Below are positions 59,337 through 64,000 of a stretch of 64,000 bases of DNA, piece after piece. Numbering within the stretch: the first letter of the stretch is position 1; each line of letters starts with the position of its first letter. The stretch covers positions 1-64,000 of the forward strand of contig CALBAK010000031.1 of assembly GCA_937926445.1 (NCBI GenBank). Reading direction: 5' to 3'. The notes under the pieces are model-generated. The model was not told where the DNA came from. It saw only the letters and a program-made list of their open reading frames with translations, and ran no database searches. Position numbers and translations under genes: made by a program. Source of the DNA: an uncultured Alphaproteobacteria bacterium (lineage in GTDB: Bacteria; Pseudomonadota; Alphaproteobacteria; Geminicoccales; Geminicoccaceae).

Positions 59337-60073
59337 GACCGGCTCCGGCCGCCGCTCTTCTCTCGCTGCTCGGTGGCCGCGCGGCGCTGCCGGCCGATCG
59401 GCTCGGCTCGATCGAGCCGCTGCATCGCCTGCCGGTGGACGGCGCGCGCGAGCCGGCGGTGATCGAGGTGTTCGATCCCCGCGAGGGGTTCAACCGCGGG
59501 GTCTACGCCTTCAACGCCGAATTCGACGAGCGGATCTTGCTGCCGATCGCCGAGGCCTATCGGAAGAGGGTGCCGGAGCCGATCCGTCGAAGGGTGACGA
59601 ACTTCTTCGACAGTCTCGCGGAGATTCGGAACGCCACCAACGGCCTCTTACAGGCGCGGCCGGAGGTGGCGAGCCGGGCGTTGATCCGCTTCGCGGTGAA
59701 CAGCACGCTCGGTCTGTTCGGCCTGTTCGACGTGGCGGGGGCCGCCGGTCTCACCGAGCAGGACGAGGATTTCGGCCAGACGCTCGGCTGGTGGGGCGTT
59801 CCGGCAGGGCCCTATCTCGTGCTGCCGATCCTGGGCCGCTCGAGCTTGCGCGACGCCTTCGGCCTCGCGGCCGACGCGGTCGCGACGCGGACGGTGAGCC
59901 CGGCCCAGGAGATCAACGAAGCCGCCTATGCGAGCCCGCTCGTCTACGGGTTCGAGGCGATCGACAGCCGAGCCAGTGTCGTGTTCCGCTACTACGACAG
60001 CGGCTCGGCCTTCGAGTACGACGTGGTCCGCTTCCTCGCGACGCGCCGGCGGGAACTCGAGATCCTGCACTGA
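59333..60073 (+). CDS. mlaA: MlaA (VacJ), outer-membrane lipid-asymmetry protein
   Basis: 246 residues from the ATG at 59333 (ATGA overlap with the hydrolase stop). DPREGFNRGVYAFNAEFDERILLPIAEAYRKRVPEPIR, NFFDSLAEIRNATNGLLQ, RFAVNSTLGLFGLFDVA and the W-G-VPAGPYLVLPILGRSSLRDA pore motif. MlaA removes phospholipids from the outer leaflet. Unusually there is no Cys in the whole protein, so the usual lipobox anchor is missing; the start was checked and no upstream Cys is in reach. Confidence 0.94.
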   Translation: MRPAPAAALLSLLGGRAALPADRLGSIEPLHRLPVDGAREPAVIEVFDPREGFNRGVYAFNAEFDERILLPIAEAYRKRVPEPIRRRVTNFFDSLAEIRNATNGLLQARPEVASRALIRFAVNSTLGLFGLFDVAGAAGLTEQDEDFGQTLGWWGVPAGPYLVLPILGRSSLRDAFGLAADAVATRTVSPAQEINEAAYASPLVYGFEAIDSRASVVFRYYDSGSAFEYDVVRFLATRRRELEILH

Positions 60074-60138
60074 GCCGCGGTCGGTCGGGCTTGCCAAGCC
60101 CGCCCGCCTCCCCTAAGTGAGGCGGGCACCTCGACGAT

Positions 60139-60213
60139 GCGGGCGTAGCTCAGGGGTAGAGCACAACCTTGCCAAGGTTGGGGTCGAGGGTTCGAATCCC
60201 TTCGCCCGCTCCA
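60139..60213 (+). tRNA. tRNA-Gly (GCC anticodon)
   Basis: 75 bases including an encoded CCA. Acceptor GCGGGCG pairs with CGCCCGC, followed by T then CCA. The anticodon stem CAACCTT/AAGGTTG frames GCC, and the T-loop reads GGTTCGAATCC. It lies just after mlaA and upstream of the alcohol-oxidation operon. Confidence 0.98.
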
Positions 60214-60374
60214 TTCGGCCCCCGCTTGCCACCTTTCTTTGCGGCTTCTGGATCGATGCCTGGTCCCCCGCGAATCCTCCGCCGCGCGGACGGGTGGCGG
60301 CACGGGCGGCGCTTCCCTCGCCGCGCGCATGGCCCCCTGCCGACGGAAGCAGACACGGTGTCGCAGATCGGCCG

Positions 60375-60403
60375 TTGACCCTTCACGCTCGCTCACTTAG
60401 CAT
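60375..60403 (+). promoter_or_regulatory. Promoter-like site of the PQQ dehydrogenase operon
   Basis: TTGACC (60375-60380), 17 bases, TAGCAT (60398-60403) in an A/T-richer stretch, 38 bases before the first start codon of the operon. A good -35 and a moderate -10 element for sigma-70. Confidence 0.5.
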
Positions 60404-60440
60404 TCTGGTTTAAAGAGGATAAGAAACCCCGGGAGGCGAC

Positions 60441-61025
60441 GTGCGCGAGGATCAGGAAGGGCGACATGGCCATTGCCCGCTCGGGCGGCGCGAGGTCGTG
60501 CTCGGGGGGGCGGCGCTATTGGTGGCCCCGGTCGGTGGTGCCGAGGCGGCCGACAACGAGCGGCGGCCGAGGGCCGGCGACGTGCTCGTGCACTCCATGG
60601 GTCCCAAAAAAGGCGCGCCCTTGCGCCTCGAGGACCTGCCGCTCGGCGGGCCCGGCGTGCTGGCCTTTCCACGGGACGAGGCGAGCGGCACGGTGCTCGA
60701 CGGCTCGCGCTTCAACGAGGTCGTCGTCGTCCGGCTCGACCCCGCCACGCTCGGCGAAGAGACCCGCAAGGGAGCGGCAGAGGGCATCGTCGTCTACTCG
60801 GCCATCTGCTCGCACGAAGCCTGCCCGGTCAACATGTGGAACGACCACGAGAAGACGCTCGTCTGCTCGTGTCACGGCAGCATGTACGACCCGCGCGAGA
60901 AGGCGGCCGTGGTGTTCGGTCCGGCGCCGCGCCGGCTCGCCCAGCTGCCGATCAAGCTCGAGGGGGGTGTGCTCGTGGCAACCGGACCGTTCGACGGCCG
61001 GGTCGGAGCGGTCCGGGCGGCCTGA
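60441..61025 (+). CDS. Tat-exported Rieske [2Fe-2S] protein of the PQQ operon
   Basis: 194 residues. Twin-arginine-like N-terminus (GRREVVLGGAALLVAP). Rieske ligands are Cys123-x-His125 and Cys142-x-x-His145. Cys128 and Cys144 would form the bc1-type disulfide that stabilises a high-potential cluster. GTG start at 60441 after GGGAGG. First gene of the operon, 110 bases before the PQQ dehydrogenase. A role as electron carrier for one of the downstream dehydrogenases is inference; no cytochrome c gene is seen in this window. Confidence 0.88.
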   Translation: MREDQEGRHGHCPLGRREVVLGGAALLVAPVGGAEAADNERRPRAGDVLVHSMGPKKGAPLRLEDLPLGGPGVLAFPRDEASGTVLDGSRFNEVVVVRLDPATLGEETRKGAAEGIVVYSAICSHEACPVNMWNDHEKTLVCSCHGSMYDPREKAAVVFGPAPRRLAQLPIKLEGGVLVATGPFDGRVGAVRAA

Positions 61026-61135
61026 AGGGGGTGGGCGGCGTGGATCTCGGGGGAGGCTGACGAAATTCCGGCAGAGCGCGACGGCCGGCCGATCCAGGGC
61101 CGGCGGCGTGGCCGGTACAAGGGGAGGGAGACGGA

Positions 61136-62842
61136 GTGTCGAAGCGGACATTGCTCGCGGCCGCGGCCCTGATGGCCTCGGCGGCGTCGGTGCAAGCCTA
61201 CACGCCGGTGACGGACGCGCGGCTCGCCAATCCGGAGCCGCACAATTGGCTCATGACGCGCGGCAACTACAAGGGCTGGAGCTACAGCCCGCTCGACCAG
61301 ATCAACACCAACAACGTCAAGAACCTGGCACCGGTCTGGACCTTCGCGACCGGCAAGCGCTCGGGCCACCAGTCGCCGCCGATCGTCAACGACGGCTACA
61401 TGTTCATCACCAACCCCGACAACCAGGTCATCGCGCTCGATGCTCGGACGGGCGAGGAAATCTGGCGCTTCCAGGGCCAGGGTCCGGAAGAGTTCAGCGC
61501 GCTCCACAACACCAATCGCGGCGTGTCGCTCTACGACGACAAGGTCTACGTCGCGATGCTGTACGGCGACCTGGTGGCGCTGGATGCCAAGACCGGCAAG
61601 GTCGCCTGGAAGACCACCGTCGCCAATTGGAAAGTCGGCGAGTACATGACGATGGCGCCCTTGACCGTGAAGGGCAAGATCGTCGTCGGCATCTCGGGCG
61701 GCGAGTTCGGCGTGCGCGGCTTCATCGCCGCCTACGACGCCAAGACCGGCCAGCAGGCCTGGAAGACCTACACGATTCCGGCACCGGGCGAGCCCGGCAG
61801 CGAGACCTGGCGCGGCGACGATTGGAAGCGCGGCGGTGCCGCGGCCTGGATGACGGGCAACTACGACGTCGAGACCAACACCATTTATTGGGGTGTGGGC
61901 AACGCCTCGCCCTGGTTCGGCGACCAGCGGCCCGGCGACAATCTCTACACCGCTTCGACCCTGGCGCTCGACGGCGACACCGGCAAGATCAAAGGCCATT
62001 TCCAGTACCACTGGAACGACAGCTGGGACTGGGACGAGATGAACGCGCCGACGCTGGTCGACTACCAGCACAACGGGCGCACCATCAAGGGCTTCATCAA
62101 GCCGGCCCGCAACGGCTATCTCTACTGGCTCGAGCGGTTGCAGAACGGCGGAATCGGCTTCGTCGACGCCAAACCCTACGTCTATCAGGACGTTTTCAAG
62201 AGCATCGATCCGAAGACCGGGCGGCCGACCTACAACGAGGACAAGAAGCCGGGCACCGGCAAGCGGGCGGAGTTCTGTCCCTCGCTGTGGGGCGGGAAGG
62301 ACTGGCCGTTCGAGGCCTACAATCCGAAGACCGGGATGGTCTACATTCCGGCAAACGACAATCACTGCGGCTTCCTCGAAGGGAAGGTGCAGGAGTACGT
62401 CGCGGGCAAGTGGTGGACCGGTGTCGACATTCCGGACATCGGTTTCACCGTGAAGAAGGACGCCAAGTCTTTCGGCGAGATCCAGGCTTGGGACATCGAC
62501 GCGGGCAAGAAGGTCTGGAGCGTCCTCTACCCGAAGTCGATGAACTGGGGCTCGATACTGACGACCGCCGGTGGTCTCGTGTTCAACGGCGGCACGCAGG
62601 ACCGGATGTTCCGGGCCTACGACGCCCGCACCGGCGAGCAGCTCTGGCAGATCAAGACGAGCTCCGGGATCATCGCGCCCCCCTCGACCTACATGGTCGA
62701 CGGCGTCCAGTACGTCGCGGTGCAGGCCGGCTGGGGCGTCGACCCGCAGTTCCAGCAGGGCCTGCTCTCCAACCTGATCCCCGGCTGGCCGAAGGCCACG
62801 ACCGAGGGCGGGGTGCTCTGGGTGTTCGCGCTGCAGCGGTGA
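61136..62842 (+). CDS. PQQ-dependent alcohol dehydrogenase with lanthanide-type ligands
   Basis: 568 residues, signal peptide (LLAAAALMASAASVQA) and eight-bladed propeller with W-docking repeats (YDAKTGQQAWKTY, LDARTGEEIWRF). Metal ligands by alignment in mind: Glu190 (SGGEFG), Asn256 (GNASPW), catalytic Asp298, and Asp300 in SWDWDEMN. The second Asp marks lanthanide use in XoxF, ExaF and PedH. The vicinal Cys-Cys next to PQQ in methanol dehydrogenases is replaced by LHNT (123-126). Periplasmic. GTG start with GGGAGGGAG upstream. Substrate not decided. Confidence 0.92.
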   Translation: MSKRTLLAAAALMASAASVQAYTPVTDARLANPEPHNWLMTRGNYKGWSYSPLDQINTNNVKNLAPVWTFATGKRSGHQSPPIVNDGYMFITNPDNQVIALDARTGEEIWRFQGQGPEEFSALHNTNRGVSLYDDKVYVAMLYGDLVALDAKTGKVAWKTTVANWKVGEYMTMAPLTVKGKIVVGISGGEFGVRGFIAAYDAKTGQQAWKTYTIPAPGEPGSETWRGDDWKRGGAAAWMTGNYDVETNTIYWGVGNASPWFGDQRPGDNLYTASTLALDGDTGKIKGHFQYHWNDSWDWDEMNAPTLVDYQHNGRTIKGFIKPARNGYLYWLERLQNGGIGFVDAKPYVYQDVFKSIDPKTGRPTYNEDKKPGTGKRAEFCPSLWGGKDWPFEAYNPKTGMVYIPANDNHCGFLEGKVQEYVAGKWWTGVDIPDIGFTVKKDAKSFGEIQAWDIDAGKKVWSVLYPKSMNWGSILTTAGGLVFNGGTQDRMFRAYDARTGEQLWQIKTSSGIIAPPSTYMVDGVQYVAVQAGWGVDPQFQQGLLSNLIPGWPKATTEGGVLWVFALQR

Positions 62843-62923
62843 GCCGGGCGGGTCGGGGCGGCCGCGGCAGCCCCGACCCGCTCGCGGCGCACGGAATGGG
62901 GCGAGACAGGGAGTCGGGCGAGG

Positions 62924-63367
62924 ATGAACGCACCGAGCAGAACGGCGACGGCCGCGGCGGCGCTGTCGATCGCGCTGGCGTTCGCGGCCGCACCGGTCCG
63001 CGCCGGAGACGACGGACCGATCCGGGTCGAGGTGGGCGAGGCGAAAGGTCCGGTCGGCAAGCCCACCGAACTCGTCGCACGGCTCACCATCGAGAAGGGC
63101 TACCGGTTCATCGAGCCACCTCCGCGCGGCAACCGGGTGATCGAGCTCTCCGCCGCCGACCAGCAGGTGGAGTTCGCGCGGCGCGTCTTCCGCGGTAAGA
63201 CCGAAGACGGTTCGGTGACCTTCCGGCTCGAGGTGACACCGAAGAGCGCGGGGCCTCACCCGATCAACGGCGTCTTCCGGGTGAGTTACGTCACGGAGAT
63301 GGGCGACAGCTACCATCTTCGTCACGTCTCGTTGCCCATGATGACCACGGTGACCGGCATCGAATAG
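62924..63367 (+). CDS. Small secreted beta-rich protein of the PQQ operon
   Basis: 147 residues, signal peptide (ALSIALAFAAAPVRA). The mature part looks like a single beta-sandwich, VEVGEAKGPVGKPTELVARLT then FRGKTEDGSVTFRLEVTPKSAG and NGVFRVSYVTE, reminiscent of the N-terminal domain of DsbD-like proteins but with no Cys. Function not recognised; probably assists the PQQ enzyme in the periplasm. 81 bases after it. Confidence 0.7.
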   Translation: MNAPSRTATAAAALSIALAFAAAPVRAGDDGPIRVEVGEAKGPVGKPTELVARLTIEKGYRFIEPPPRGNRVIELSAADQQVEFARRVFRGKTEDGSVTFRLEVTPKSAGPHPINGVFRVSYVTEMGDSYHLRHVSLPMMTTVTGIE

Positions 63368-63532
63368 CCGGCCGGGCCCGGCCCGGCCCCCCGGCGCGCC
63401 CGCCGGGAGGCGGCCGGGCGTCTTGAGGGAGAATGCGACGCCGCGACCGCGGACCCGATGGTGGTGCCGGTGCGCGGTTCCGACCCGGGTCGGGGCGCAG
63501 CCCCGGGTGTTTCGCCGAGGGAGGCACGGCAG

Positions 63533-63988
63533 ATGGCGATCAAGCTCACCCTCAACGGCCGTGAGGTCACGGTCGACGCGCCCGGCGACATGCCGATCCT
63601 GTGGGCGTTGCGCGACATTCTGAACCTCACGGGCACCAAGTACGGTTGCGGCATCGGTGCCTGCGGCGCCTGTACGATCCACATGGACGGCAAGGCGGTG
63701 CTGGGCTGCGTGGTGCGGCTCGAAGAGGCCGCCGGGCGCAAGATCACGACGATCGAGGGGCTCGACCCGGACGGCAACCATCCGGTGCAGAAGGCCTGGG
63801 CCCAGCTCGGCGTGCCGCAATGCGGCTATTGCCAGCCGGGCCAGATCATGCGCGCCGCGGCCCTGCTCGCCGAGAAGAAGAACCCGACCGACGCCGAGAT
63901 CGACGAGGCGATGGCCGGCAACATCTGCCGCTGCGGCTGCTACCAGCGGATCCACGCGGCGATCCGATTGGCCGCTACGGGAGTGTGA
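63533..63988 (+). CDS. [2Fe-2S] subunit of a molybdenum hydroxylase (IorA/CoxS-like)
   Basis: 151 residues from the ATG at 63533 (GGGAGG upstream). Plant-type cluster ligands Cys39, Cys44, Cys47, Cys59 in [18 protein letters not shown], and second cluster Cys97, Cys100, Cys132, Cys134 in CGYCQPGQ and [11 protein letters not shown]. The size matches two-subunit enzymes such as isoquinoline 1-oxidoreductase and aldehyde dehydrogenases of acetic acid bacteria. No Tat signal on this chain. The large subunit should begin at 63993. Confidence 0.94.
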
Positions 63989-63992
63989 GACC

Positions 63993-64000
63993 ATGACGCT
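63993..64000 (+). CDS. Start of the next gene, probably the molybdenum-binding large subunit
   Basis: Only ATG and five further bases lie in the window, 4 bases after the [2Fe-2S] subunit, with GAG upstream. The identity is inferred from the standard small-large order of these enzymes. Confidence 0.4.

Follow-up and report, generated by a model that had tools for sequence, protein, structure and literature searches.

A twin-arginine Rieske protein as the probable electron acceptor of a clade of PQQ-dependent alcohol dehydrogenases

Introduction

Which redox partner accepts the electrons of a pyrroloquinoline quinone (PQQ)-dependent alcohol dehydrogenase when the gene beside it codes for a Rieske iron-sulfur protein? 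For periplasmic enzymes of this class the textbook partner is cytochrome c. The question is raised by the window analysed here, which comprises 64,000 nucleotides (bases 1–64000 of the 96.9 kb contig CALBAK010000031.1, assembly GCA_937926445.1, genome size 3.7 Mb) from an uncultured alphaproteobacterium of the Geminicoccaceae, and in which the gene for a Rieske protein with a twin-arginine translocation (Tat) signal precedes that of a PQQ dehydrogenase. An earlier note, made from the window alone, had suggested the Rieske protein as an alternative electron acceptor. The comparative data reported below point to the Rieske protein as the probable dedicated primary electron acceptor of the dehydrogenase, in place of cytochrome c; gene linkage and the loss of a cysteine pair from the dehydrogenase argue strongly for this assignment but do not demonstrate it.

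Results

Linkage of the Rieske and PQQ dehydrogenase genes

Both genes are located on the same strand and separated by 110 bp. Their relevant features are:

60441..61025, + strand: Rieske [2Fe-2S] protein with twin-arginine signal, predicted to be soluble and periplasmic (PF00355, E 2.5e-8)
60807..60824, + strand: Rieske box 1, CSHEAC (ligands C123 and H125, disulfide C128), invariant in 100/100 homologues
60864..60881, + strand: Rieske box 2, CSCHGS (ligands C142 and H145, disulfide C144, H-bonding S147); C142, C144, H145 and S147 invariant in 100/100 homologues
61136..62842, + strand: PQQ-dependent alcohol dehydrogenase with N-terminal signal peptide (TIGR03075, 570 bits, cut-off 480)
61505..61507, + strand: codon of His124 in the loop that bears adjacent cysteines in other PQQ alcohol dehydrogenases; His in 93/93 linked enzymes
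62027..62035, + strand: catalytic Asp298 and lanthanide-type Asp300 (DWD); Asp298 in 93/93 linked enzymes, Asp300 in 81/93 and Ala in 12

The Pfam and TIGR03075 matches bear out both gene identities given in the earlier note, and the conservation of the pair, which it had proposed as a check, proved to be nearly one-to-one. Searches for the PQQ enzyme and for the Rieske protein were run independently, each with its own protein query. At the order level, nine of 31 genomes contain the PQQ enzyme (at least 53% identity), and the same nine contain the Rieske family (E at most 1e-27), with the two genes adjacent in 9/9. Among 398 genomes drawn across the Pseudomonadota, the PQQ clade and the Rieske family occur in an identical set of 12 and nowhere else, again adjacent in 12/12; the members are set off by wide score gaps (PQQ enzyme at least 830 bits, next 469; Rieske protein at least 179 bits, next 58), and a simple hypergeometric count puts the chance of such a coincidence at ~10^-22. 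When loci in named genomes were collected by the Rieske protein alone (n = 80), a PQQ gene was found adjacent in 74, and in one additional locus the gene of the small secreted protein sits between the two. The Rieske gene comes first in 68 pairs and the PQQ gene in 8. These loci belong to the Pseudomonadota, Acidobacteriota, Gemmatimonadota, Myxococcota and Rokuibacteriota. A sixth phylum, the Deinococcota, is represented by a pair on an annotated Deinococcus plasmid. Pairwise distances among the Rieske proteins and among the PQQ enzymes, compared as matrices, give a correlation of r 0.82 outside Bradyrhizobium, a value reached in 0/2000 permutations and partly attributable to shared descent. 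Apparent overlaps between PQQ and Rieske open reading frames (ORFs) at three loci (L116, L140, L111) were judged to be other-frame ORF extensions and not gene fusions.

Some relatives of the Rieske protein occur apart from a PQQ gene. On Thermus and Meiothermus plasmids (L178 4854-5447 and L183 4863-5462), close relatives have no adjoining PQQ dehydrogenase, and the next gene encodes a TauE/SafE-type exporter in both, which suggests another partner for these proteins. In two Acidobacteria (L144 4201-4791, L147 7989-8546) a Rieske protein of the family is encoded between topoisomerase-like and housekeeping genes, with no PQQ gene nearby.

The PQQ dehydrogenase and the missing cysteine pair

The dehydrogenase (568 residues) is a member of the methanol/ethanol dehydrogenase family defined by TIGR03075, and its predicted model is matched best by PedH (6zcw/6zcv) and also by XoxF. 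The active-site residues E190, N256, D298 and R325 are invariant in 93/93 Rieske-linked enzymes. An Asp two residues past the catalytic Asp, the hallmark of lanthanide-type enzymes, is present here as D300 and in 81/93 linked enzymes; on this residue the window enzyme and most members of the clade would be assigned to the lanthanide type, with lanthanide use itself presumed. PqqC is encoded in the genome.

The adjacent-cysteine motif is found in 0/93 Rieske-linked enzymes versus 39/46 other PQQ enzymes, and the corresponding loop of the clade carries an invariant His (93/93). The vicinal disulfide has been reported to be essential for efficient electron transfer to cytochrome c550 in ExaA (PMC12997753), and its universal loss in the clade is consistent with a changed electron acceptor. 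The linked enzymes form one clade, split from the others by a branch whose SH-aLRT support is 100; most rows of this tree were picked via the Rieske protein, which does not apply to the 398-genome test. Contig 6 of the same genome encodes another PQQ-type dehydrogenase without adjacent cysteines (L005 11730-13472, YYCGPNNRG), which falls outside the Rieske-linked clade.

Search for a cytochrome partner

The earlier note had seen no cytochrome gene up to the window end and had named a dedicated cytochrome c farther along the operon, with the Rieske protein belonging to another enzyme, as the finding that would overturn its proposal. No such gene was encountered: between 58001 and 78000 no ORF of at least 60 residues holds a CXXCH motif, none of the called genes of the window has one, and beyond 64000 the operon continues into the gene of a molybdenum hydroxylase subunit, IorB. 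The window dehydrogenase has neither the Cys-Cys motif nor the adjacent cytochrome c gene of the cytochrome-c-linked subgroup (ExaA/PedE/XoxF-like). In the control, non-clade PQQ enzymes never have a Rieske gene inside 1.5 kb, and several have a CXXCH gene there, among them one enzyme encoded on contig 6 of the same genome.

A cytochrome c encoded elsewhere could nevertheless be the direct acceptor, leaving the Rieske protein an accessory role in redox sensing, maturation, protection or a side path. Cytochrome c is indeed what most characterised PQQ alcohol dehydrogenases use, and the genome is rich in such proteins, with 16 PF00034 matches, none of them on the contig of the Rieske-PQQ pair. 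We consider this explanation unlikely in view of the near one-to-one linkage of the PQQ enzyme to a Rieske protein with intact ligands, the clade-wide loss of the Cys-Cys motif and the lack, in genera other than Bradyrhizobium, of any cytochrome family that turns up repeatedly next to the pair. In that genus the cytochrome gene lies several kb from the pair, grouped with frmA-like, gfa-like and further PQQ dehydrogenase genes. At two Bradyrhizobium loci (L074 7812-16552, L085 7845-16592) the module of Rieske, PQQ dehydrogenase and IorAB genes adjoins this gfa/frmA/cytochrome c set, the layout of which resembles an xoxF methanol cluster whose authors also list seven other PQQ dehydrogenases without known function (PMC12628762).

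Properties of the Rieske protein

The Rieske ORF encodes 194 residues and has a GTG start. The bc1/b6f-type signature (CxHxxC and CxCHxS), including the four ligands, two disulfide cysteines and the H-bonding Ser, is invariant across 100 homologues, and a twin arginine is found within the first 90 residues in 99/100, in line with the earlier description of a Tat-type protein with bc1-like ligands. Position 149, the Tyr position, is occupied by Tyr in 47 and by Phe in 53 homologues. The known role of the H-bonding residues leads one to expect a high-potential cluster, which for bc1/b6f-type Rieske proteins means a redox potential above about +100 mV. In the structural model (pLDDT 90) the signal region is of low confidence and a long anchor helix is absent; the nearest solved structure is the Thermus Rieske protein 1nyk. 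An N-terminal CxC seen within the genus was dropped as a family trait, being present in only 30/100 homologues. Identity with AioB, the small subunit of arsenite oxidase, was likewise rejected: the profile TIGR02694 (arsenite_ox_S) gives 49 bits, below its cut-off of 95.65, and the neighbouring gene encodes a PQQ dehydrogenase, not AioA.

The closest solved relatives being bc-complex Rieske proteins of Thermus and actinobacteria, the window protein might be thought to belong to a bc1-type complex as a subunit whose gene lies apart from that of cytochrome b; Rubrivivax reportedly has exchangeable extra Rieske copies. However, a second Rieske gene of the genome lies ~1 kb from the sole cytochrome b match and on the same strand (contig 90), the model of the window protein is devoid of a long anchor helix, and its gene tracks that of the PQQ dehydrogenase across genomes. 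We thus rejected an assignment to the bc1 complex, which appears extremely improbable.

Operon context and the second oxidation step

The flanking features are:

60139-60213, + strand: tRNA-Gly (GCC), directly upstream of the Rieske-PQQ operon
60375..60403, + strand: promoter-like site TTGACC-17-TAGCAT, 37 bp ahead of the Rieske start
62924..63367, + strand: small secreted protein, probable operon member; homologues adjoin 12/74 Rieske-PQQ pairs
63533..63988, + strand: IorA-type [2Fe-2S] subunit of a molybdenum hydroxylase (PF01799, E 3.1e-31)
63993-66338, + strand, running past the window end: IorB (MoCoBD_1, E 2.9e-40) with a Tat motif

The promoter-like site is the sole match in 60000-64000 and weak, shuffled sequence giving 0.4 on average; it would be compatible with a single operon transcript, which it fits but does not prove. 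The small secreted protein (62924-63367) has no family match in Pfam or NCBIfam, a TRAP DctM gene follows IorB beyond 66338, and PADLOC returned no match.

A full-length IorB is encoded near 32/74 Rieske-PQQ pairs and is absent from the fetched flanks, some of them short, of 42/74. On Azoarcus and Paracoccus plasmids the aldehyde dehydrogenase gene aldA takes the place of IorAB. The presence of either IorAB or aldA beside the pair suggests alcohol to aldehyde to acid as the likely pathway. The frequent proximity of IorAB, which in the window shares the operon, would also fit a Rieske protein that serves the molybdenum enzyme and has the PQQ enzyme as a mere neighbour. The pairs without IorB in their flanks and the aldA loci of Azoarcus and Paracoccus speak against this arrangement, and across genomes it is the PQQ gene, not IorAB, that tracks the Rieske gene; we judge it to be very improbable.

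Discussion

Taken together, the genomic data favour a periplasmic alcohol-oxidising module in which the PQQ dehydrogenase would reduce a dedicated soluble Rieske protein and not a cytochrome c. In the scenario we propose, the alcohol is oxidised at the PQQ site, the electrons of PQQH2 would leave singly towards the [2Fe-2S] cluster, and the Rieske protein might pass them on to a general periplasmic cytochrome c and thus to a terminal oxidase. Further oxidation of the resulting aldehyde probably falls to the co-encoded IorAB, or to AldA in other species. The role of the Rieske protein as dedicated acceptor appears likely; we infer that electrons run from the dehydrogenase to it and do so directly, and likewise their onward path, the substrate, lanthanide use and the IorAB step.

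Several points weigh against this assignment. The evidence is genomic, and gene linkage does not say which way the electrons run. Eight of the 12 genomes in the 398-genome test belong to one genus, which leaves about five genera of independent evidence; the sole genome of that genus without the PQQ enzyme (G317) is also without the Rieske protein. Moreover, five of the 80 Rieske loci have no nearby PQQ gene, two of them on short contigs, and loss of the Cys-Cys motif is not unique to the clade, as 7/46 non-clade PQQ enzymes also do without it and have no Rieske partner.

On a wider and more tentative view, a mostly lanthanide-type clade spread over at least six phyla may have swapped cytochrome c for a Rieske protein, with the loss of the Cys-Cys motif and the invariant His marking a rewired electron exit, and the same Rieske protein might collect electrons from both the PQQ dehydrogenase and IorAB. 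No description of the Rieske-PQQ pair was found in the open-access papers searched, although one elsewhere is possible. The role of the odd adjacent-cysteine disulfide in PQQ alcohol dehydrogenases is still debated, and a natural clade without the disulfide and with a non-haem partner would make the question testable. In addition, the pair offers a possible function for unassigned PQQ dehydrogenases of widespread soil bacteria, Bradyrhizobium among them, and for lanthanide-type enzymes still lacking a known respiratory link.

Comparison with known systems

The dehydrogenase shares with PedE/PedH, ExaA and XoxF the passing of the TIGR03075 cut-off, a PedH/XoxF-like predicted fold, the PQQ active-site residues and, in most members of its clade, the lanthanide-type Asp, but its clade differs from them by the absence of the Cys-Cys motif, the invariant loop His and a Rieske gene that replaces that of cytochrome c. 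The IorAB of the operon resembles the isoquinoline 1-oxidoreductase type in having the genes of a [2Fe-2S] and a molybdopterin-binding subunit in one operon and a Tat motif on IorB; the difference is that no cytochrome gene is close to them. The Rieske protein matches that of Thermus thermophilus (1nyk, 3fou) over the full length of the sequence (E 3e-50), with the same fold and with the ligand and disulfide pattern common to bc-complex Rieske proteins. It is distinguished from the latter by its presumed partnership with a PQQ dehydrogenase, by a predicted model without an anchor helix and by the separate bc1 Rieske protein of the genome. The nearest functional analogy is provided by the arsenite oxidase AioAB, in which a Tat-exported Rieske protein relays electrons from a periplasmic oxidoreductase to cytochrome c; the entry 8ed4 among the structure matches is AioAB with cytochrome c552. 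The proposed module would follow the same sequence of transfers, except that its catalytic partner is a quinoprotein and not a molybdenum enzyme.
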